IMG/VR virus record: IMGVR_UViG_3300046507_000598
Location: 1-41,812 of that record
Source: a virus
DNA length: 41,812 bases
Strand: one strand, 5' to 3'
Shown here: positions 25 to 41,812 of the stretch, in pieces
Numbering within the stretch: position 1 is the stretch's first letter
Layout: the number at the start of each line of letters is the position of its first letter
The notes under the pieces: model-generated
What the model saw: only the letters and a program-made list of their open reading frames with translations
Told to the model about the DNA's origin: nothing
Database searches by the model: none
Made by a program: the position numbers and the translations under genes

Positions 25-98
25 GCGGGTGTCGTATAATGGCATTACTCCAGCTTCCCAAGCTGATAACGAGGGTTCGATTCCCTTCACCCGCTCCA
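25..98 (+). tRNA. tRNA-Gly (anticodon CCC)
   Basis: The acceptor stem GCGGGTG pairs with CACCCGC, followed by discriminator T and an encoded CCA (96-98). The anticodon loop TTCCCAA gives anticodon CCC, which reads GGG glycine codons. The T-arm GAGGGTTCGATTCCCTT is canonical. The 3' part from the anticodon stem onward (51-99) is repeated at 40748-40796, so the phage carried a copy of this segment and restored the gene on integrating. Confidence 0.95.
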
Positions 99-99
99 G
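51..99 (+). repeat. attL: 49-bp core repeat, copy 1
   Basis: This segment is identical to 40748-40796 and runs from the anticodon stem to one base past the tRNA CCA end. The flanks diverge at once on both sides (C50 against A40747, T100 against C40797), which fixes the length at 49 bp. It is the site where attP recombined with the tRNA gene. The copy here is part of the intact tRNA. Confidence 0.95.
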
Positions 100-733: not shown

Positions 734-856
734 GGCGCGCAGAAGAAGGAACGCTTTGCATCGAGGCGGCATGGCGACGAAGAGAGAGGTAATAGTCCTT
801 GCGATTAGGTGCTCTTGTCTGCAGACTGCCACTTATCCCACGCGACATACCTAAAG

Positions 857-2146
857 ATGAACGGCGAAATCCCACTCTCGGCTTATGCCCATGCAATCCT
901 CCGGGGAGGCGATCTCGAACCTCCTCGCCCTCTCCCGCTAAGTCCCTTTTTTGAAGCTGTCGAATCTAGCTGCGCGACCCAGGTGGTGTACGACGTACTG
1001 TCACGCTCGGACCGGCGGCGCCACGGCATATTTTTTTCAGGCGCAGAATGGGCGCGAACGCTTGTGTCAGAGCTAAGGCTTGAAGAGTGGCGCCGCTTTG
1101 TTGATCCAAGTGTAGGAAGCGGCGACCTTCTGGTAGAGATATGCAGAAGGCTGCCTATCGGCGCCGACGTACATGAAACTATTGAGGAATGGTCGAATCG
1201 CTTAGTCGCGATAGACCTGAGAGAGTCATTCCTGAAGATTGCTTGGGCGCGCATCCAAGGGGTTGCGCTCCTTCGGCATCAGCAAGCAGGCGGAGCTACG
1301 AAGCAGTTTACCCCGCGTCCGCTTCCCGAGAATTTTCGGGTCGGCGACGCTCTAGAAATGTCCTTGGCGTTGAAGCAAAACGATTGTGTCATCATGAATC
1401 CGCCTTATCAGCGAATGTGCGCGAGCATAACCAGCTTCGTAGGATCTGGAATGAGGTCCGCTGCGGCCCTGCATCTTGAGCATGTGCTGAAAGAAGGTCC
1501 TGAGTCGGTAGGAATCATCGCACTGATTCCAGAAGTACTGCGGAGTGGCACCTCCTACAGGCGCTTTAGGGAAGAAGTCCAGCGCAGAATGGTTGTAAAA
1601 AGTTTCGACTCTTCAGGGCGATTTGGTGCGGGGGCGGACATAGACGTGGCAGTGCTGGTTGGTAGGACAGCTGCTGGTAACAACGACTCGATGCCGATCA
1701 TTGAGACGCAAGATCACATAACTCTAGGGGATTATTTCTCAGTAAGAGTAGGACCGGTTGTGCCACATCGATCGGCTATGGACGGTCCTGAATGCGGCTA
1801 TCTCACTGCCAAAAACTCTCGCGTTGGACTGGAGATTACCGTCCCACCAGAGCTGGCGACGTTCAGGACCAGAGTTGAATGCGGCCCCTTCATAATTGTC
1901 CGACGGACCTCAAGTCCCTCAGATAAAAAGCGAGCGAGGGCTACGTTAATTTCTAGCACAAGTAGCTTCTTAGTGGAGAACCATCTACTAATCATCAAGG
2001 CTCACAGTGGAGACATAGCTGAGTTGCTAAAATTGATGTCGATATTGGATGACCCTAGAACCGACACATGGCTTAATAGCCATATCCGTTGCCGACATTT
2101 AACTGTCAGCGCAGTAAAAAAAATCCCTCTTTGGGACCACGCATAA
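857..2146 (+). CDS. N6-adenine DNA methyltransferase, cargo operon gene 1
   Basis: It would transfer methyl groups from S-adenosylmethionine to adenine in DNA. From the ATG at 857 (429 aa), motif I DPSVGSG lies near residues 83-89, an acidic residue of motif II near D120, and the catalytic NPPY at 181-184. Motif I before NPPY gives the gamma-type order of type I/TaqI-like enzymes. The C-terminal half is probably the target-recognition region. A GTG start at 809 would add 16 residues; neither start has a strong Shine-Dalgarno. No restriction endonuclease lies nearby. Fifteen bases separate it from the next gene, so it leads a four-gene operon. Base composition is AT-richer than the phage core. 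Function in defence or self-marking is inferred. Confidence 0.85.
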   Translation: MNGEIPLSAYAHAILRGGDLEPPRPLPLSPFFEAVESSCATQVVYDVLSRSDRRRHGIFFSGAEWARTLVSELRLEEWRRFVDPSVGSGDLLVEICRRLPIGADVHETIEEWSNRLVAIDLRESFLKIAWARIQGVALLRHQQAGGATKQFTPRPLPENFRVGDALEMSLALKQNDCVIMNPPYQRMCASITSFVGSGMRSAAALHLEHVLKEGPESVGIIALIPEVLRSGTSYRRFREEVQRRMVVKSFDSSGRFGAGADIDVAVLVGRTAAGNNDSMPIIETQDHITLGDYFSVRVGPVVPHRSAMDGPECGYLTAKNSRVGLEITVPPELATFRTRVECGPFIIVRRTSSPSDKKRARATLISSTSSFLVENHLLIIKAHSGDIAELLKLMSILDDPRTDTWLNSHIRCRHLTVSAVKKIPLWDHA

Positions 2147-2161
2147 CAAGGGATTGACAGT

Positions 2162-4264
2162 ATGGAAAAGCCGTCTACAGGATTTCGGTTTGCACCATCC
2201 ATCCTCACCCGGCTCGGAGAGGAGTTGGTCCCTAACCTAGATCAAGCGATCATTGAGCTTATAAGGAACTCGTACGACGCAGACGCAACAATCTGCGACA
2301 TACAAATAAAAAGCAATTCTAATGCAGGAAGTACAATCACACTTTCTGATGACGGAACCGGAATGCTGTTGGAGCAGGTTCTAAACAACTGGCTGGTTCT
2401 TGGTGGCTCTTCAAAATCAAGCTCAAAGTTAACAAAAGGAGGGCGGCGGACTGTAGGTGACAAAGGTTTAGGGCGGCTAGCGGCGTTGCGAGCAGGCGAT
2501 AAAGCTGTGATGGTTACCAGGCACGAAAGCCAAGAACCTACTGAAGCGGTATCGATCGATATCGAGTGGAAACGCTTTGAAAATGCAACGGTAGTAGAGG
2601 ACGTTCAGCTGCCGATTAGCAAGTCATATCGTCCAAACTATGGGACGACAATCACGCTAAGCGGAGTAAAACGCAAATTAGGCAGAGCTGAAATAGATCG
2701 CCTAGGTCGTAGCATCGTCCTGTTAACTAGTCCTTTTGAGGGCAGTAGCGATTTCCGTGTGACGCTTGATGCCCCAGATTACCCGGAACTGGAAGCTAGA
2801 GTTCGCAATGCTTATCTTGACGACGCAGAATATGTGCTAAAAGCGCAGATTCTAGAAGACGGAACCGGCATCGCAGAAGTGAGAGACTTCAAAGGCACCG
2901 TACTTTATCGCGACCCTTCAAGTGAATGGTTGTCCCGAAAAACCGAAGAGAGCGCGTCCTACCAAGCACCCGCTACGACGTTTGAACTCTATAGCTTTGT
3001 GTTTAACAAAAATTCGTTTGCTGGAAGAGGAACTACAATCGGAGAGGTAAGAAATTGGCTTAAAACAGTAGGCGGAGTACATTTCTATCATCGAAAGTTT
3101 CGCGTCCCCCCATATGGTGACCCAGGCCACGACTGGCTGGATATGAACCTGTCTCGAGCACGGAGCCCGGAAGAAAGGCCATCAACCAACAATAGTGTTG
3201 GCCGCGTCGTTGTCGACGATCCCGACGGCATACTACGCCAGAAGACAGATAGAGTCGGGTTTATCGAGGGCGAGGAATTCCATGAAATACGGCGCTTTGC
3301 CAAGAATGCTCTAGAATGGTTTGCTCGGCGTAGGTTGAAGGATGCGGAAAGCCGACGCGACAATCAAAAAGAAGAGGCGCGACAAGCCCCTGAAAAAGCA
3401 AGAGCGGAGTTCCTCAAGACGATTTCAGATTCGCTACCGCCTCAAGAAAAAGAACGAGCAATCAAAGCTCTGAATATTATTGAAAAGACTTACGAAAAAG
3501 AGCTAAAAGCAACCCGCGATGACTTGGTACTCTATCGATCTTTAGCTACCGCAGGCACAACGGCTGCGGTGTTTGCGCATGAGATAGGTAAACCTATTCA
3601 GATCATTACGAGTAATCAGAAAACAATCGTACGTCGTACCGAGAACCTGCGCCCGGCCGAGGATGTTAAGCGACTGCAAGAGCCACTAAGATTAATCATG
3701 AGTGCATCTCAGAGACTCTCTAGATTTGCTGGCATGCAAATAGATTTCTTGAAGCGGGAGAAGAGAAGGCATGGGGCCGTGGATATTAATTCCGTCATCA
3801 AAGACCTCCACAAACTCTGGCAGCCGGTTTTGGAGGATTCCAAGATTTCCCTGGTCCTTGAACCACATTTCGTCGAAGGCGCGGTAATTTTCGGAGCCGA
3901 AGCATTAGTAGAAACCATAATCACTAACTGCCTCACAAATGCAGTGAGCGCCTTTGAGCGCGAAGGCGCCAGAACCGTTGACCGCCAAATCATACTTAGG
4001 GCTATCGCGGAAGGGGACACAATCGCCCTTGAAGTCGAAGACAATGGACCTGGCATAAACATGAATCTCGACGAAATCTGGCTTCCAGGGCGGACGACAC
4101 GCCAAGAAGGTACTGGTTTTGGATTGACCATTGTCAAAGATTCAACATTAGATCTTGGCGGAACTTTTAGTGCTTCTACCGAGGCAAACTCGGGCGCGAA
4201 GTTTAGGTTTGTTTTCCCTTTGGTAAATAACAAGGCGAAAATCACAGATGAATCAGATAAATAA
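2162..4264 (+). CDS. Dual GHKL ATPase / histidine kinase, cargo operon gene 2
   Basis: This 700-aa soluble protein joins two ATP-binding modules. The N-terminal one (about 10-220) is Hsp90/MutL/MORC-like: N-box E32 and N36, DDGTGM at 63-68, and GDKGLG at 99-104. The C-terminal one is a histidine-kinase core: H-box AHEIGKP with H473, N-box N589/N593, DNGPGI from D627, and GTGFGL at 650-655. Residues about 385-465 are a charged coiled coil. There is no membrane segment, so the signal is likely cytoplasmic. AAGGGA at 2148-2153 supports the start. It overlaps the receiver gene by 17 bp, so the pair probably forms a phosphorelay. The N-terminal module may sense and the C-terminal one transmit; that is inference. 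Confidence 0.85.
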   Translation: MEKPSTGFRFAPSILTRLGEELVPNLDQAIIELIRNSYDADATICDIQIKSNSNAGSTITLSDDGTGMLLEQVLNNWLVLGGSSKSSSKLTKGGRRTVGDKGLGRLAALRAGDKAVMVTRHESQEPTEAVSIDIEWKRFENATVVEDVQLPISKSYRPNYGTTITLSGVKRKLGRAEIDRLGRSIVLLTSPFEGSSDFRVTLDAPDYPELEARVRNAYLDDAEYVLKAQILEDGTGIAEVRDFKGTVLYRDPSSEWLSRKTEESASYQAPATTFELYSFVFNKNSFAGRGTTIGEVRNWLKTVGGVHFYHRKFRVPPYGDPGHDWLDMNLSRARSPEERPSTNNSVGRVVVDDPDGILRQKTDRVGFIEGEEFHEIRRFAKNALEWFARRRLKDAESRRDNQKEEARQAPEKARAEFLKTISDSLPPQEKERAIKALNIIEKTYEKELKATRDDLVLYRSLATAGTTAAVFAHEIGKPIQIITSNQKTIVRRTENLRPAEDVKRLQEPLRLIMSASQRLSRFAGMQIDFLKREKRRHGAVDINSVIKDLHKLWQPVLEDSKISLVLEPHFVEGAVIFGAEALVETIITNCLTNAVSAFEREGARTVDRQIILRAIAEGDTIALEVEDNGPGINMNLDEIWLPGRTTRQEGTGFGLTIVKDSTLDLGGTFSASTEANSGAKFRFVFPLVNNKAKITDESDK

Positions 4265-4928
4265 GGTCGCCGTCGTCGATGATGATGACGAAGCGGCAAT
4301 GACTATGATCCACACCTTAGAAGACGCAGGGTTTGTCGCATTTAGACAACCTGCTTTTGATACTATCCAGCAAATGGCCGACGCTATTATCGAAGGCTCG
4401 GATGCAGCGGTCTGTGACCACCGCCTCCGCTATGGCGCCTATGCAGACATCACCGGAGCACAATTAGGAGCCGAATTGGTAAGGAGACAGCATCCAACGA
4501 TTCTCGTCACGCAATACTTAGATCAGTACGCAGATATTGCAATCCGTAGCTACAGAAGTAATTTACCGGTAGTTCTTAGACGAGATGAAGCTGACGAACC
4601 TGAATCGCTCCGCGCCGGATTCGCACGATGCATTAACGAGTTTCGACGTGGAAAAATAGATGATAGGAAATTACACAAAACAATCCTGAAAGTTAAAGAA
4701 ATACAAAGTATAGGCGGAGAGGTTGTCATTGACGCTATTGTTCACGGCTGGAACTCTAAAGATGCTGTGCGATTTCCCATGGAGTTGGTAGCCGAAGGTG
4801 ATCGCGCAAGCGTGTGTGAAAACAGCTCTTTAGAGGCAATGACAAATGTTTCCACCGAAACCAAGGTGGACCTGTATTTCGAGGACGTGCGCTTAGCTCC
4901 AGAACCGGACCCTGACGATGGCCTCTAG
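4248..4928 (+). CDS. Receiver-domain response regulator without DNA-binding domain, cargo operon gene 3
   Basis: Residues 5-125 form a receiver domain: acidic cluster D11-D14, phosphoacceptor D57 in AVCDHRL, and a switch threonine in ILVTQY. The conserved lysine is replaced by arginine (VVLRRDE). The last 100 residues do not resemble a helix-turn-helix or any output domain I know and end in an acidic tail. It is therefore more likely to act by protein contact than as a transcription factor. The gene overlaps both neighbours (17 bp upstream, 11 bp downstream), so translation is probably coupled and the likely partners are the kinase and the MBL protein. Confidence 0.8.
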   Translation: MNQINKVAVVDDDDEAAMTMIHTLEDAGFVAFRQPAFDTIQQMADAIIEGSDAAVCDHRLRYGAYADITGAQLGAELVRRQHPTILVTQYLDQYADIAIRSYRSNLPVVLRRDEADEPESLRAGFARCINEFRRGKIDDRKLHKTILKVKEIQSIGGEVVIDAIVHGWNSKDAVRFPMELVAEGDRASVCENSSLEAMTNVSTETKVDLYFEDVRLAPEPDPDDGL

Positions 4929-5967
4929 TGAACTAATAATTTTGGATGTGGGCCACGGTAACTGCGCGCTGATTAAACATGGATCAGAAGCAATCATTAT
5001 AGATGCCCCGGCAAAGCCCATCGTAGCTCGAGCGTTAGATGAACTGGGTATAACCTCGATTCACTCATTAATAATATCTCATGCCGATAACGATCATCTG
5101 TCCGGTGCTATACCACTGATGATGAACGACGACCGCCCCATCCAGCACGTATATGTTAACCCGGACGACAGAGACAGTGCTGCGTGGCACGATTTCAGGA
5201 CAGCCGTGGGGACGGTGCGCAGATCAAAAAGGGGCATTACTGTCCATACATCACTCAACATGGAAGAGCCTCAAGAATTAAAAATCAACGAGACAACGTT
5301 AACTGTCTTGCACCCATCTCCTGAATTATGCCTTGCAACTACTGCTGGCGTGCATACTGACGGCCGAAGAGTGAATGCAAACTATATGTCCGCTGTGGTT
5401 TTGGTCGAGCATGACGGGGAGCGTATTTGCTTACTTGCCGCAGATTCTGATAAATACAGTTTGGATTTGATGTTGGAAGAGAAAACGAATCTCCGAGCGC
5501 CTGTTTTAATCTTTCCTCACCACGGAGGTCGTGCGGGGCAAAATACTGACAACCGGGAATTCGCAAAACAGCTCGTATCGGCAGTTCAACCTTCATTAGT
5601 TTTGTTTTCATTGGGTCGAGGCTCTCATGGAACCCCCCGAGCGGAGATTGTCTTGGGCGTCCGAGAGGCAATGGCAGGTACAGTGCCCTACATTGCCTGC
5701 ACTCAGCTATCCCGAAATTGTTGTAATGACTCTCCCCCATCAAAGAGCCCCCAGCGTTTACTCGACAAGAACTCGGACGGCTATGCTAAAGATAACTGTT
5801 GTGCCGGCACAATATCTATTCCGCTCGAAAAGAAAGGTTGGGAAACGGTCATCTCGTCTTTAACCATGAATCATGGGTCATTCGTAGCCAAAGAGGTCCC
5901 CGGTTCGCTCTGCCGCAGGAAAATTGAGCCGTCCTCTGAATCTTCACGAGTTATTGCAAAGGTTTAG
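4918..5967 (+). CDS. ComEC-like metallo-beta-lactamase-fold protein, cargo operon gene 4
   Basis: A 349-aa soluble MBL-fold hydrolase. The N-terminus LDVGHGNCALIKHG is the ComEC/Rec2 signature. Metal ligands appear as H55-x-D57-x-D59-H60, D176 in AADSD, and H201-H202-G-G. The C-terminal 100 residues contain cysteine pairs (RNCC, NCC) that may form an extra metal site. Unlike ComEC it has no membrane channel. ComEC-type MBL domains are thought to degrade DNA, so it is the best effector candidate in the operon, but a nucleotide or other substrate is possible. The ATG lies inside the end of the receiver gene. It ends 22 bp from the convergent portal gene. Confidence 0.8.
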   Translation: MASSELIILDVGHGNCALIKHGSEAIIIDAPAKPIVARALDELGITSIHSLIISHADNDHLSGAIPLMMNDDRPIQHVYVNPDDRDSAAWHDFRTAVGTVRRSKRGITVHTSLNMEEPQELKINETTLTVLHPSPELCLATTAGVHTDGRRVNANYMSAVVLVEHDGERICLLAADSDKYSLDLMLEEKTNLRAPVLIFPHHGGRAGQNTDNREFAKQLVSAVQPSLVLFSLGRGSHGTPRAEIVLGVREAMAGTVPYIACTQLSRNCCNDSPPSKSPQRLLDKNSDGYAKDNCCAGTISIPLEKKGWETVISSLTMNHGSFVAKEVPGSLCRRKIEPSSESSRVIAKV

Positions 5968-29270: not shown

Positions 29271-29540
29271 ATGACTAAGTCTCAGCCACAGCAAACCTTG
29301 AGAGAAATATTAGCGGTAAATGGGGATCTCAGGCGAAAGGTACAAAGTGCCGCAGTACTGGCTGCTTATGGCGTAATTAAGGAGGCAGGGTATTCAATCA
29401 CAGAACAAGATATTGAAGAAGCTAAAGCAGACCAAACGGCTATCGCAATAGCGCTCACAAACGGTGCTAAGGGAGACAATCTTCCGGAAGTGATAATTGC
29501 CACTAGTATCGGAGTGGCGATCGCCTCCGGAGGATTTTAA
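29271..29540 (+). CDS. Nif11-like leader peptide, possible RiPP precursor
   Basis: An 89-aa peptide. Residues 9-52 fit the Nif11 leader pattern: TLREILAVNGDLRRKVQSA, then VIKEAGYSITEQDIEEA. Such leaders direct tailoring enzymes to a C-terminal core that is later cut off and exported. The C-terminus here (about 60-89) is hydrophobic, rich in Ile, Ala and Gly, lacks cysteine and ends ASGGF. A hairpin then separates it from a diiron enzyme gene. A non-RiPP role is possible since many Nif11 proteins are uncharacterised. GGAG supports the start. AT-rich codon use marks it as recently acquired. Confidence 0.65.
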   Translation: MTKSQPQQTLREILAVNGDLRRKVQSAAVLAAYGVIKEAGYSITEQDIEEAKADQTAIAIALTNGAKGDNLPEVIIATSIGVAIASGGF

Positions 29541-29552
29541 CCGGTAATGAGC

Positions 29553-29575
29553 TGGGTGAGGCTTAGCCTCATCCA
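29553..29575 (+). terminator. Intercistronic hairpin between precursor and diiron enzyme genes
   Basis: TGGGTGAGGC and GCCTCATCCA form a 10-bp stem with one G-U pair and a TTA loop. No T-run follows, so it probably acts as a partial terminator or RNA-stability element. Such hairpins often keep precursor mRNA above that of the modifying enzymes. Confidence 0.6.
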
Positions 29576-29599
29576 TAGGAATATGGAGACCTGATTGTC

Positions 29600-30214
29600 A
29601 TGAGTGCCGATAGCCTGTCCTCAAAGCTAATTAAAACAATCACCCGTAGTAAGAAAGATTTTTTTTATGTAAACGGCGACGATATTCAGTGCGTGATTAG
29701 CAATCTAAAGTTCGTCTACAGCGCAGTCATTGGGACCGAGAGCCTTATCTCCTGTGCAATCGAGCAATTGAAACGGATCGAGCCAAGTTCTTATCGCAAT
29801 GTAATAATATCGTATTTGTTAGAACACCTAGATGAAGAGTTCGATCACGCCAGATGGCTTTCAGATGATTTGAACGCACATGGGGTAAATCTTACCAGGT
29901 TAGATAACGACGCCATGTTCATGATAGGCGCCCAATACTACATGATACATCACGAGACACCTTACTGCCTTTTAGGATATATGGCAGTAGCAGAAGGAAC
30001 TCCGACGCCCATATCTGAAATAGAGAAAATGGAACAAGTATACGGCAGAAAACTATTCAGATTCTCAAGATTTCATTCAATAAAGGATCAAGAGCACAAG
30101 CACGCCTTATTTAAATACATTGACAGTGCCCCAACGAACATAGCTGAAAGTATAACCCGAAGCACTGATATCAGCTTGGAATGTATGGCTAGGGCAGCAC
30201 AGCATTGGGTTTAG
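29600..30214 (+). CDS. Haem-oxygenase-like diiron oxidase/oxygenase (HDO)
   Basis: A 204-aa all-helical protein of the iron-containing redox enzyme family. It carries the set of ligands expected for HO-like diiron enzymes: E47, E75, H83, E132, and H159-x3-D163-x2-H166. The last pattern matches that of SznF-type HDO domains as I remember them. Members use O2 to oxidise, cleave or decarboxylate amino-acid-derived substrates. The gene directly follows the Nif11-like precursor, so the peptide is the natural candidate substrate. GGAG lies upstream of the ATG. The assignment to the fold is good; the reaction is unknown. Confidence 0.72.
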   Translation: MSADSLSSKLIKTITRSKKDFFYVNGDDIQCVISNLKFVYSAVIGTESLISCAIEQLKRIEPSSYRNVIISYLLEHLDEEFDHARWLSDDLNAHGVNLTRLDNDAMFMIGAQYYMIHHETPYCLLGYMAVAEGTPTPISEIEKMEQVYGRKLFRFSRFHSIKDQEHKHALFKYIDSAPTNIAESITRSTDISLECMARAAQHWV

Positions 30215-30321
30215 CACGGTTCCAAGAAGCCAAGATAGTGAGCCGAGATATTCTGCCTGCAACTAGCTTGGCGATCCAGATTATAAAATTTATTCAACCT
30301 TCAACAGAGCTGGGGAAAATT

Positions 30322-31320
30322 ATGAAACTTAAGCCGCTATGCCTTGTGTTTTTGACCATATTTATCGGCCAGTCTGGAGAGGTATTATCTGACAACCAGA
30401 GACAGGATACTCTAAAGGAAAATATTAAAATCCTCAACAAACTTCAAGACCTCGCATCAAATCAAAATAAATCGACCGAAGTATTGAACGCGTCTTACGG
30501 CCCGCTCCCGTATAGATTAACATCGATCGAGGGCATCGCGTTTACTTCACTGAACTCGCCTTTGATATTGAGACTCAATAGCGGTGACGGCCTCGATAGA
30601 GTACTTGGCGGAGTCCCGGTAAATATGAGTGAATTTCCTTGGCAAGTTGCCTTATTAAACCCAAAAACTGGAACATTATTTTGTGGTGGCAGCCATATCG
30701 GTAATGGATGGATTGTTACCGCTGCACATTGCATAAGTGACAGGTATAGATCTCCGCTTGTGAAGGCTGACATCATAGTGCTGACGGGAACTAATAGTCT
30801 CACCAATGGAGGCAGCCGAGCCCAGTTACTCTCTGACCCAGTAGTACATCCCAAGTGGAATCCTACAAGCGAAAACGGCGACGAACATCAAAATGACATA
30901 GCTCTCTTGCATATTTCCATGCAAGATTCTCTTCCATCCATTGCGCTACCTCTCGCTACTGTTGAGGCCCCCCTTGTAGCGGATAATTCACAGCTAATGG
31001 TTTCGGGCTGGGGACACACGACAGAAAACGGAACTATATCGACCACTCTTTTGAAAGTTGGGGTTCCAATAGTCAGCAATGACAGTTGTGCACAGTCATA
31101 CGATAATTCTATAACCTCGTTCCAAGTGTGCGCTGGCAAATCCGGCCGAGATTCGTGCCAGGGGGATAGTGGAGGTCCTCTGCATAGTACAGGTAGTGAG
31201 GGGCGCCTATTAATCGGAGTGGTTAGTTATGGAAAGGGCTGCGGGCGCGAGGGATATCCGGGGGTATACACCAGGGTAGTCAAGTATAAAGAATGGATAC
31301 ATGAGACAGCTGGATTATGA
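30322..31320 (+). CDS. Secreted trypsin-like serine protease (S1A) zymogen
   Basis: A 332-aa exported protease. A signal peptide (KPLCLVFLTIFIGQSG) is followed by a propeptide and an activation site R93/V94 (R-VLGG). The triad is H136 (TAAHC), D192 (NDIALL) and S283 (GDSGGP). Asp277, six before the serine, predicts cleavage after Arg/Lys. Cysteine pairs suggest disulphides and a periplasmic or extracellular site. GGGGA supports ATG 30322; the frame is open to 30205 without homology. It may cleave the modified peptide or a host target. AT-rich codon use resembles the two genes before it. Confidence 0.9.
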   Translation: MKLKPLCLVFLTIFIGQSGEVLSDNQRQDTLKENIKILNKLQDLASNQNKSTEVLNASYGPLPYRLTSIEGIAFTSLNSPLILRLNSGDGLDRVLGGVPVNMSEFPWQVALLNPKTGTLFCGGSHIGNGWIVTAAHCISDRYRSPLVKADIIVLTGTNSLTNGGSRAQLLSDPVVHPKWNPTSENGDEHQNDIALLHISMQDSLPSIALPLATVEAPLVADNSQLMVSGWGHTTENGTISTTLLKVGVPIVSNDSCAQSYDNSITSFQVCAGKSGRDSCQGDSGGPLHSTGSEGRLLIGVVSYGKGCGREGYPGVYTRVVKYKEWIHETAGL

Positions 31321-37685: not shown

Positions 37686-37715
37686 TTGACTAGAATGCAC
37701 GTCAGCCGGCATAAA
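37686..37715 (+). promoter_or_regulatory. Candidate promoter of the DUF262-HEPN pair
   Basis: TTGACT (37686-37691) and CATAAA (37710-37715) are 18 bp apart, upstream of the DUF262 start at 37751. This is a fair sigma-70 match and suggests the cargo pair is expressed from its own promoter in the lysogen. Confidence 0.45.
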
Positions 37716-37750
37716 TGCGTGCCTTAATACACCGAACACTGGGTAATTTT

Positions 37751-38740
37751 ATGGATCGAGTCGACTATCAAGCTCTGATTATTCAAGACATTATTAATCT
37801 TGAAGCTAGAGCTGAACTGAACCTAGCACCTTGGTATCAACGACGGTCCGTATGGAGCACTCCACAGAAATCGTACCTCGTAAATACACTACTTGAGCGG
37901 AAACCGATTCCCGCTATCTACATCAGGCATTCACTGGACCTCGACAACGCAAAGAGCATTAAAGAAGTCGTGGATGGGCAACAGCGAACGCGCGCAATAA
38001 TCAGCTACTACAATAATGAATTTAGCGCTAGACATCCCAACTATCCACGAAAGATTTATTACAATCAGCTCAAAAGAGAAGAGCAACAGCTATGGCTGCT
38101 GACATCAATTCCAGTAGGCTATTTATTAGGAGCTACTGATGCAGATGTGATTGATATCTTTGGCCGCATCAACTCAATTAGCAAAACATTAAATCCACAA
38201 GAGAAGCGCAACGCGGCTTTTAGCGGAGAGATGAAACAATTTTGCCTAGAGCAAGCTTCGTCCCGAACGCCATTCTGGCGAGAGTACGAAATTTTTTCGG
38301 CAACTGACATCTCAAGAATGTCTGAAGTCCTATTCATATCCGACCTTGTGTTTAATCTAATGAACGGACTATCGGATTACAGCCCTGCAAATCTTAATAA
38401 CATGTATAGTGAATACGATGAGGAATTCGACGACAGGGAAGACCTGTCCAACGAGCTTGACAGGTTATTCGACATCATAGGCTCACTGGATCGAAACCTA
38501 ATTACCGATACGATATTCAACCGTCAGCCATTATTCTTCTCATTGCTCATGGCAGTTCACCAAACTGCAAGAATATCAATGAAAAAGCTATCAACCGCAA
38601 TAAACAATATTGATGAGCGCTTTCACTCGGAAGTTAACAGAACACGAGCGGATGACAATTTCAAAGACGCATGTATTTCGACAACCCAGCGCATAGCTCA
38701 ACGCCGAGTCAGAGACCAATACATCAAGAGTTTCTTTTAA
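37751..38740 (+). CDS. DUF262 protein (ParB-like fold), cargo 3
   Basis: A 329-aa protein with the DUF262/GmrS-N signature: LAPWYQRRSVW (25-35) and VVDGQQRTRA (73-82). DUF262 domains are ParB-like NTP-binding or nuclease modules found in GmrSD-type restriction of modified DNA. The C-terminal HNH domain (DUF1524) of GmrSD is missing, and the remaining sequence is helical. It is followed after two bases by a HEPN nuclease gene, which makes the pair a likely defence or toxin-antitoxin unit. AT-rich codon use suggests recent transfer. ATG 37751 has only a weak ribosome site; an upstream frame from 37715 is less likely. Confidence 0.82.
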   Translation: MDRVDYQALIIQDIINLEARAELNLAPWYQRRSVWSTPQKSYLVNTLLERKPIPAIYIRHSLDLDNAKSIKEVVDGQQRTRAIISYYNNEFSARHPNYPRKIYYNQLKREEQQLWLLTSIPVGYLLGATDADVIDIFGRINSISKTLNPQEKRNAAFSGEMKQFCLEQASSRTPFWREYEIFSATDISRMSEVLFISDLVFNLMNGLSDYSPANLNNMYSEYDEEFDDREDLSNELDRLFDIIGSLDRNLITDTIFNRQPLFFSLLMAVHQTARISMKKLSTAINNIDERFHSEVNRTRADDNFKDACISTTQRIAQRRVRDQYIKSFF

Positions 38741-38742
38741 AA

Positions 38743-39357
38743 ATGGCGAGACCGAATTTGAATATTACGATTCAAAATTCTTTCCGCCAGATTGATAAGC
38801 TCCATCAGCATCAAGTTGACTGTGAGCGACTTGAGGCAAGATATCAGCATTTCATCGGAGAGATGATAATGCTGCGGCTATTTTCAATTTTTGAAGATAC
38901 TGTCGCTGAACTCGCATACAAAATCGCGGCTGGAGCGTTCTACCTTGATGGCACCAGCCCTGCGATTTTAATTAAATCTGGAAGAACCCGGGATTCTAGA
39001 GCGCTACTCATGAACCACGGACGAACCCGGCCGGTGGACAATCTGAAATGGACCAAACCGAAATTTATTAAGGAAAGCGTCGAGCATGTTATTCCAGCAA
39101 CCGAGCCTTTTATTCGGATCGCACAAGCGCACGGACAGATAATTGATGAAATGCGCAAAGTAAGGAATTCACTCGCTCACAACTCACCATCTGCTCGAAC
39201 CGAATTCAAACAGGTGGTACGGCAAATCTACGGCTTTAACAAAAGTGTCACTCCTGGAATATACTTGATTTCCATACGGCATCATCGTGTTTGCAATCTA
39301 ACAAGGTATATTGGATCAACAAAAGCCATCCTTCAGGGCATGGCTAGGGGCAGTTAA
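38743..39357 (+). CDS. HEPN-domain ribonuclease (MAE_28990/RiboL-PSP-like), cargo 3
   Basis: A 204-aa helical protein. The HEPN active-site motif RNSLAH (R141-N142, H146) fits R-x4-6-H. Its overall shape resembles the MAE_28990/RiboL-PSP HEPN families, which cut RNA in abortive infection. It starts two bases after the DUF262 stop, so the two are coupled and may form a sensor-effector or antidote-toxin pair. It ends 20 bp before the convergent integrase gene. Confidence 0.78.
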   Translation: MARPNLNITIQNSFRQIDKLHQHQVDCERLEARYQHFIGEMIMLRLFSIFEDTVAELAYKIAAGAFYLDGTSPAILIKSGRTRDSRALLMNHGRTRPVDNLKWTKPKFIKESVEHVIPATEPFIRIAQAHGQIIDEMRKVRNSLAHNSPSARTEFKQVVRQIYGFNKSVTPGIYLISIRHHRVCNLTRYIGSTKAILQGMARGS

Positions 39358-40747: not shown

Positions 40748-40796
40748 CAGCTTCCCAAGCTGATAACGAGGGTTCGATTCCCTTCACCCGCTCCAG
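40748..40796 (+). repeat. attR: 49-bp core repeat, copy 2 (tRNA-Gly 3' fragment)
   Basis: Identical to 51-99. It is the original 3' end of the host tRNA-Gly gene, left without its 5' part after integration. It marks the right border of the prophage. Confidence 0.95.
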
Positions 40797-41241: not shown

Positions 41242-41812
41242 ATGGAAAAGGCTCAGGCATCTCCCCGCGACGCGACCACTAACGATCACACCCACAACAG
41301 CAAATGGGGCATTGCAGCGGGGTTTTCGGCGAGTCTGGTGGGCATCGGGTTGGCCCGGTTCGCTTATACGCCGTTGCTGCCAGCGATCATTGATGCAGGG
41401 TGGTTCGATTCTTCGAAAGCAGCCTATCTGGGTGCTGCGAATCTGGCGGGGTATTTGATCGGTGCGCTGACCGGGCGGGTGATGGCCGGGAAAACGTCTA
41501 CCGCCTTCACTCTGCGCGCCATGATGCTGCTGGCGAGTGTTGCGTTTCTGGCCTGTGCATTCCCGGTTTCCTACCTCTGGTTTTTTATCTGGCGTCTGCT
41601 GTCGGGAATATCTGGCGGCGCTTTGATGGTCCTTGCTGCTCCAGCCGTGCTGGCGTATGTGCCGCCCTCAAAAAGAGGCCTGGCTGGTGGGGTTATTTTC
41701 ATGGGGGTTGGCGTCGGAATCGCTGCTTCCGGAACCCTGGTGCCGCTGTTGTTGCAGCAAGGTCTGCAACAGACGTGGATAGGGCTGGGGATCATTTCAC
41801 TGTTGTTCACGG
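41242..41812 (+). CDS. MFS transporter (YbfB/YjiJ-like), 5' part
   Basis: An inner-membrane transporter cut by the window end; 190 residues are visible. A short polar N-terminus is followed by membrane segments such as GIAAGFSASLVGIGLARFAY, then GYLIGALTGRVMAGK and LMVLAAPAVLAY. The GIGLARFAYTPLLPA motif is typical of the YbfB/YjiJ group. The substrate is unknown. It belongs to the host chromosome. Confidence 0.85.
   Translation, partial: MEKAQASPRDATTNDHTHNSKWGIAAGFSASLVGIGLARFAYTPLLPAIIDAGWFDSSKAAYLGAANLAGYLIGALTGRVMAGKTSTAFTLRAMMLLASVAFLACAFPVSYLWFFIWRLLSGISGGALMVLAAPAVLAYVPPSKRGLAGGVIFMGVGVGIAASGTLVPLLLQQGLQQTWIGLGIISLLFT

Follow-up and report, generated by a model that had tools for sequence, protein, structure and literature searches.

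A Nif11-like peptide, a predicted diiron enzyme, and a trypsin encoded together in a P2-like prophage: a possible RiPP-like cassette

Does a three-gene group carried by a P2-like prophage encode a minimal RiPP pathway? The window analyzed here, a viral DNA of 41,812 nucleotides (IMG/VR record IMGVR_UViG_3300046507_000598), encodes a Nif11-like peptide, a predicted heme-oxygenase-like diiron oxidase/oxygenase (HDO), and a trypsin-like protease, which an initial annotation had read as precursor, tailoring enzyme, and protease. All three open reading frames are intact and co-directional, where that annotation had placed them (Table 1). They lie in a complete P2-like prophage, as shown by PHROG matches (portal, terminase, capsid, sheath, and baseplate hub), an Ogr-type regulator, and a 49-bp perfect repeat. 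Because the two copies of this repeat are attL and attR, the prophage is complete and an MFS gene at 41242 belongs to host DNA.

The trio is an A+T-rich moron (GC content of 42 to 44%, versus about 60% for the phage) with gene D on one side and the repressor region on the other, and with a gap of 107 nt ahead of the trypsin gene. A scan for promoters and terminators at the trio found no more than expected by chance and no significant promoter; a hairpin between the peptide and HDO genes could possibly act as an expression step-down. As the initial annotation had noted, a dedicated exporter is missing: we saw no gene for a transporter next to the trio, the MFS gene falling outside attR. No immunity gene was found with the trio. 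Elsewhere in the prophage, the left end (809 to 5967) carries methyltransferase-like (PADLOC mad2/MTase_II), HATPase, receiver-like, and metallo-beta-lactamase-like genes, a possible defense module. A second low-GC patch, which adjoins the integrase (37715 to 39357), encodes a GmrSD_N/DUF262-type protein (PADLOC NsnA-like) and a 228-aa partner, possibly a defense pair.

Table 1. Positions of the trio and of the prophage ends in the window
Feature	Positions	Strand	Basis and remarks
attL	51..99	+	3' part of tRNA-Gly, left prophage end; 49-bp perfect repeat
Nif11-like putative precursor peptide, 89 aa	29271..29540	+	ORF; TIGR03798 leader match, sub-threshold; identical in L002
Proposed core, residues 68-89, GDNLPEVIIATSIGVAIASGGF	29472..29537	+	Predicted from tryptic map and charge count
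Small hairpin, 7 bp, between peptide and HDO genes	29556..29572	+	Fold, z -1.4, not significant
HDO, predicted, 204 aa	29600..30214	+	PF14518, ligand conservation, model and fold match, tree
Secreted trypsin zymogen, 332 aa	30322..31320	+	PF00089, PDB trypsins; signal and propeptide by inspection
attR	40748..40796	+	Second 49-bp repeat copy, right prophage end

The peptide had been described as a Nif11-type leader followed by a hydrophobic core, and this description holds in a slightly weaker form. Residues 17 to 55 match the Nif11 leader model TIGR03798 with 25.9 bits (E = 8.7e-6), below the NCBI cut-off of 32.3 bits; judged by sequence, the peptide would be Nif11-like and not a formal member of TIGR03798. 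Between the leader and the proposed core, a Gly-Gly type leader end is absent, and K67-G68 is found there instead. There is no K or R after K67, the last 15 residues are uncharged, and the C-terminal residue is Phe. The C terminus, VIIATSIGVAIASGGF (SIGVAIASGGF), is of the same type as that found in the neighbors of phage HDOs (see below). In a low-confidence structure model of the peptide alone, the core is hydrophobic and helix-prone. A search of the peptide against plasmids gave no credible match, and Nif11 searches of 20 HDO-bearing records returned only a near relative of the window phage (contig L002) and a 12-bit stray.

The seven-residue ligand pattern noticed in the second gene was borne out by comparison with its relatives. 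The product matches PF14518 (Haem_oxygenas_2) at 30.9 bits, just above the cut-off of 28.9, and its pattern consists of E47, E80, H83, E132, H159, D163, and H166. Across 34 aligned HDO relatives, six of these residues are invariant, while E47 is kept in 29. Sequence searches against solved structures gave no match, nor did a library of viral structures under E = 0.001. An AlphaFold2 model built on the alignment of relatives (pLDDT of 94.5) found its best solved-structure matches in 3dde, CtCADD (TM score of 0.77), and UndA. The enzyme is thus predicted to have the heme-oxygenase-like helical fold, on the basis of this model, and the conserved His/Glu/Asp residues are the predicted dimetal ligands of the HDO superfamily.

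The third gene likewise encodes an exported trypsin-like protease, as first proposed. It matches PF00089 (E = 6e-55), aligns to PDB trypsins (to E = 5e-39) from about its VLGG start, and has the trypsin domain, catalytic triad, and Asp-type specificity pocket of an S1A trypsin. By inspection, an Asp lies 6 residues before the active Ser, indicating trypsin-type specificity, the N terminus is signal-peptide-like, and a propeptide of about 70 aa ends at R93, placing the start of the mature enzyme at V94 (30601). An upstream TTG was considered as the start codon, and the ATG at 30322 was judged likelier.

A genome-neighborhood search, proposed in the initial annotation, recovered the same trio in only one other phage contig, L002. 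The peptide is identical in the two contigs (2 synonymous and no other changes in its gene), the HDO genes differ by 5 synonymous and 5 other changes (dN/dS of about 0.25), and the trypsin genes differ by 6 synonymous and 4 other changes (dN/dS of about 0.2). The trio genes have thus been kept, with the HDO and trypsin genes under purifying selection in both contigs. The trio recurs, then, but because its only other carrier is a near relative, the association represents one lineage. A single-sequence pattern scan of 84,980 species genomes found no close relative, 50,697 deposited phage records gave no match, and single-sequence scans of IMG/VR returned nothing beyond L002; further relatives were reached by profile scans only.

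Those profile scans of IMG/VR recovered 16, then 38, then 13 loci with related HDOs, together about 40, and the phage enzymes among them are mostly 26 to 42% identical to the window HDO. One further phage copy (L026) lies in a Herminiimonas prophage. In two trees, which take in the sequences reachable by pattern scans, the window HDO falls within a phage-only clade (support of 100/99 and 99/100), with L011 as its closest sister, L172 as the next, and a long stem (1.35 to 1.44 changes per column), and the bacterial branches fall outside. It therefore looks like an enzyme recruited from phages rather than acquired from a bacterial RiPP cluster. The phage family is apparently undescribed so far. 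In nearly all loci, its gene overlaps or abuts the end of a gene for a virion structural or DNA-ejection protein (phrog_6121 or phrog_4287), mostly within the structural operon of a podovirus, where a GNAT-type gene comes first and genes for internal virion proteins follow. These podovirus loci (L011-L069, L172, and L178) hold the nearest kin of the window HDO and resemble the trio in that the upstream product has an uncharged, aromatic-ended tail. They differ in that this product is a virion protein and in that neither a Nif11 peptide nor a trypsin was observed at these loci; the window HDO gene, unlike those of most other phage-clade HDOs, stands behind the peptide gene and is not part of the structural operon. 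Matches on plasmids were set aside, since most belong to a different HDO branch within a conserved proteobacterial operon ("thermostable hemolysin," AMP-binding, HDO, and SDR genes; L004, L005, L006, L009, and L010), apparently a separate HDO pathway.

A candidate target of the phage HDOs is suggested by the protein that precedes them. In 29/33 cases, the ejection protein has an uncharged stretch of 15 residues ending in F or Y, an arrangement seen in 0/256 other ORFs at the same loci. As a control, we took homologues of the ejection protein chosen regardless of HDO (80 loci) and nine deposited phages. An empty slot after the ejection protein goes with a C terminus formed by an S74 chaperone domain or by some other non-aromatic sequence (aromatic in 0/61). 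Where the slot is filled, the end is usually aromatic: with an HDO (31/34), with a PP-loop (PAPS-reductase-like) gene (16/17), and with a DUF7694 gene (4/4). Counted as clusters at 70% identity, aromatic to non-aromatic ends stand at about 25:4 for occupied slots and 0:9 for empty slots without S74 (Fisher's p = 4e-6), and in two clusters (cl1 and cl25), related ejection proteins change their end in step with slot occupancy. The tail is therefore linked to any of the three slot genes and not to the HDO alone; a signature unique to HDO phages was accordingly rejected. The PP-loop-like genes occupy the slot in HDO-less phages (L103, 3732 to 4457; L094, 4285 to 4977; L149, 4795 to 5490; and others), with tails ending MAF, and a 100-aa DUF7694 gene does so in a third group (L104, 2345 to 2647; L123, 4870 to 5172; L151, 4828 to 5130), with tails ending MMAF.

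From sequence comparison, this tail is a candidate HDO target, a modifiable C terminus. It is rather unlikely, in our estimate, that the tails carry no substrate signal, being an ancestral, membrane-seeking feature of the ejection protein that is lost with deletion of the slot gene, or a product of overlapping-gene constraint, the Phe of the window peptide then being a coincidence. The sharing of the tail by three unrelated slot genes fits such an origin, as do the many junctions between ejection protein and slot gene that overlap as TTCTGATG. However, Phe and Tyr are both used, so the residue and not the DNA seems to be kept; in some relatives with an empty slot, just a few terminal residues are different (L117 ends MAFI and L115 ends IMRGA); and HDO-adjacent precursors of unrelated families have similar ends. 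A broader proposal is that a widespread phage HDO family, whose slot can instead be taken by PP-loop or DUF7694 proteins, oxidizes the C-terminal aromatic residue of the DNA-ejection protein, and that a P2-like phage moved the enzyme onto a Nif11-led peptide, turning a virion-maturation enzyme into a RiPP pathway; taken as a whole, we regard it as unlikely.

Bacterial relatives of the enzyme bring small peptides back into the picture. At eight Actinomycetota loci, an HDO lies beside a precursor of 60 to 80 aa ending AGGALF; those tested match the NCBIfam "aroma-sacti cluster" domain, and one such locus (L027) additionally encodes an S8 protease and a radical SAM enzyme. In G610, a 57-aa precursor ending RPMMF, again of the aroma-sacti domain family, adjoins an HDO, and in G599 (Pseudomonadota; L203, 6989 to 8879) an operon encodes a 60-aa RiPP-like precursor ending VGIVI, an HDO, and a papain-type protease. 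Three more actinobacterial precursors found beside HDOs have V as the last residue; their leaders are of the aroma-sacti or NHLP-clan type, in some cases with sub-threshold scores. In Sinorhizobium fredii, the neighbors of an HDO gene are apparent YcaO and TfuA genes and one for a peptide ending VICGL. Time and again, then, HDOs of the wider clade are found with RiPP-type precursors whose ends are hydrophobic; the window peptide represents a further precursor family with such an end. The final residue is F in 9/14 of these bacterial precursors and V, I, or L in the other five, so the aromatic-end rule is a loose one.

Comparison with known systems places the trio near, and apart from, several of them. 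The aroma-sacti and NHLP-clan loci of Actinomycetota, G610, and G599 (NF045560 and NF038399) share with it a small precursor, a wider-clade HDO, a hydrophobic C terminus, and often a protease; they differ in leader family, some have radical SAM and cyclase-type genes, and they are not phage-borne. In the thiovarsolin pathway, the HDO VarO likewise tailors a ribosomal peptide, as shown genetically by gene deletion; there, however, the reaction is Arg dehydrogenation, YcaO-TfuA is needed, the precursor is a repeat precursor, the modified residue is not a C-terminal aromatic one, and the host is Streptomyces (PMC6511847). The Sinorhizobium TfuA-YcaO cluster associated with an HDO (PMC8120280) also pairs the enzyme with a precursor-like peptide, but has thioamide enzymes and an HDO only 23 to 26% identical. 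Sublancin, a RiPP encoded in the SPbeta prophage, sets a precedent for a RiPP-type gene in a prophage but is a glycocin with its own immunity protein, a Gram-positive host, and no HDO (PMC6391423).

On balance, we consider it close to an even call whether the trio, a moron, forms a minimal RiPP-like cassette in which the HDO would oxidize a hydrophobic C terminus and the trypsin would free a 22-aa core. This reading rests on a co-directional, intact trio under purifying selection in two contigs, in which the putative precursor gene beside a gene of tailoring-enzyme type is kept in L002; on the HDO fold and ligands, the bacterial kin beside RiPP-type precursors, and the modification of a RiPP by VarO (PMC6511847); and on the uncharged aromatic end shared by the window peptide and the phage HDO neighbors, together with a core without a trypsin site. 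The minimal RiPP cluster of the initial annotation is thus upheld in part: the bacterial kin, G599 (precursor, HDO, and a non-homologous protease), and VarO speak for it, whereas the nearest HDO kin are virion-operon phage enzymes without a precursor peptide. Against the cassette also stand its single lineage, the sub-threshold Nif11 match, the occurrence of the tail with PP-loop and DUF7694 genes, and the lack of an exporter, an immunity gene, and a significant promoter.

If the trio does act as such a cassette, the Nif11-like leader would present the C-terminal segment to the HDO, which, using O2 at the diiron site, would modify the hydrophobic C terminus, most likely at the terminal Phe, a site suggested by comparison. 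UndA-like beta-hydrogen abstraction, with or without CO2 loss, is the chemistry we favor. A C-terminal Phe or Tyr supplies both a carboxylate and a benzylic hydrogen, which UndA-like chemistry could use. The peptide would then exit the cell via a host route, and the exported trypsin, activated at R93|V94, would be expected from its sequence-read specificity to cut after K67, serving as the leader-removing protease and releasing the K/R-free 22-residue core. The core might, speculatively, benefit the lysogen, perhaps against competitors. The enzyme itself would have been recruited from a phage HDO family that in podoviruses may act on the C-terminal tail of the neighboring DNA-ejection protein.

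Two alternatives compete with the cassette. The HDO could have a small molecule as its substrate, or a different protein of the phage or host, with the peptide, HDO, and trypsin genes being separate morons that accumulated at a hot spot flanked by gene D and the repressor. Phage HDOs do work without a small precursor, the hot spot is low in GC, a gap precedes the trypsin gene, and small molecules are the substrates of most known HDOs (reviewed in PMC13108848), but the trio is co-directional and stays together in L002, the peptide end matches those of other HDO neighbors, and the precursor-HDO pairing recurs in bacteria; we consider separate morons fairly improbable. The other alternative, a modified peptide that is retained inside the cell or in the membrane (acting as regulator, superinfection-exclusion peptide, or virion component) while the trypsin serves another purpose, e.g., attacking surface proteins, is live because neither exporter nor immunity gene was found, and the hydrophobic, helix-prone core and the phage HDO kin beside the ejection protein agree with it, but a protease beside the precursor recurs (of another family in G599, and S8 in Streptomyces), and we judge it improbable.

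Prophage RiPPs have been described (sublancin, PMC6391423), and so, separately, has RiPP tailoring by an HDO (VarO, PMC6511847). The initial annotation knew of no described cluster of this make-up in a P2-like prophage, and in the open-access papers searched we likewise found neither the trio combination nor the phage HDO family, its position after the ejection protein, or the C-terminal aromatic signature. The HDO superfamily is growing fast, and VarO is the sole RiPP-tailoring member that we found with genetic proof. If the cassette reading is true, a phage-borne set of three genes would be a simple system for studying how an HDO acts on a ribosomal peptide; comparison predicts the last residue as the substrate site. 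It would also represent a route for phages to evolve new peptide products. Phage-wide modification of ejection proteins, if true, would be an unrecognized post-translational modification in tens of metagenomic phages and categorically new.
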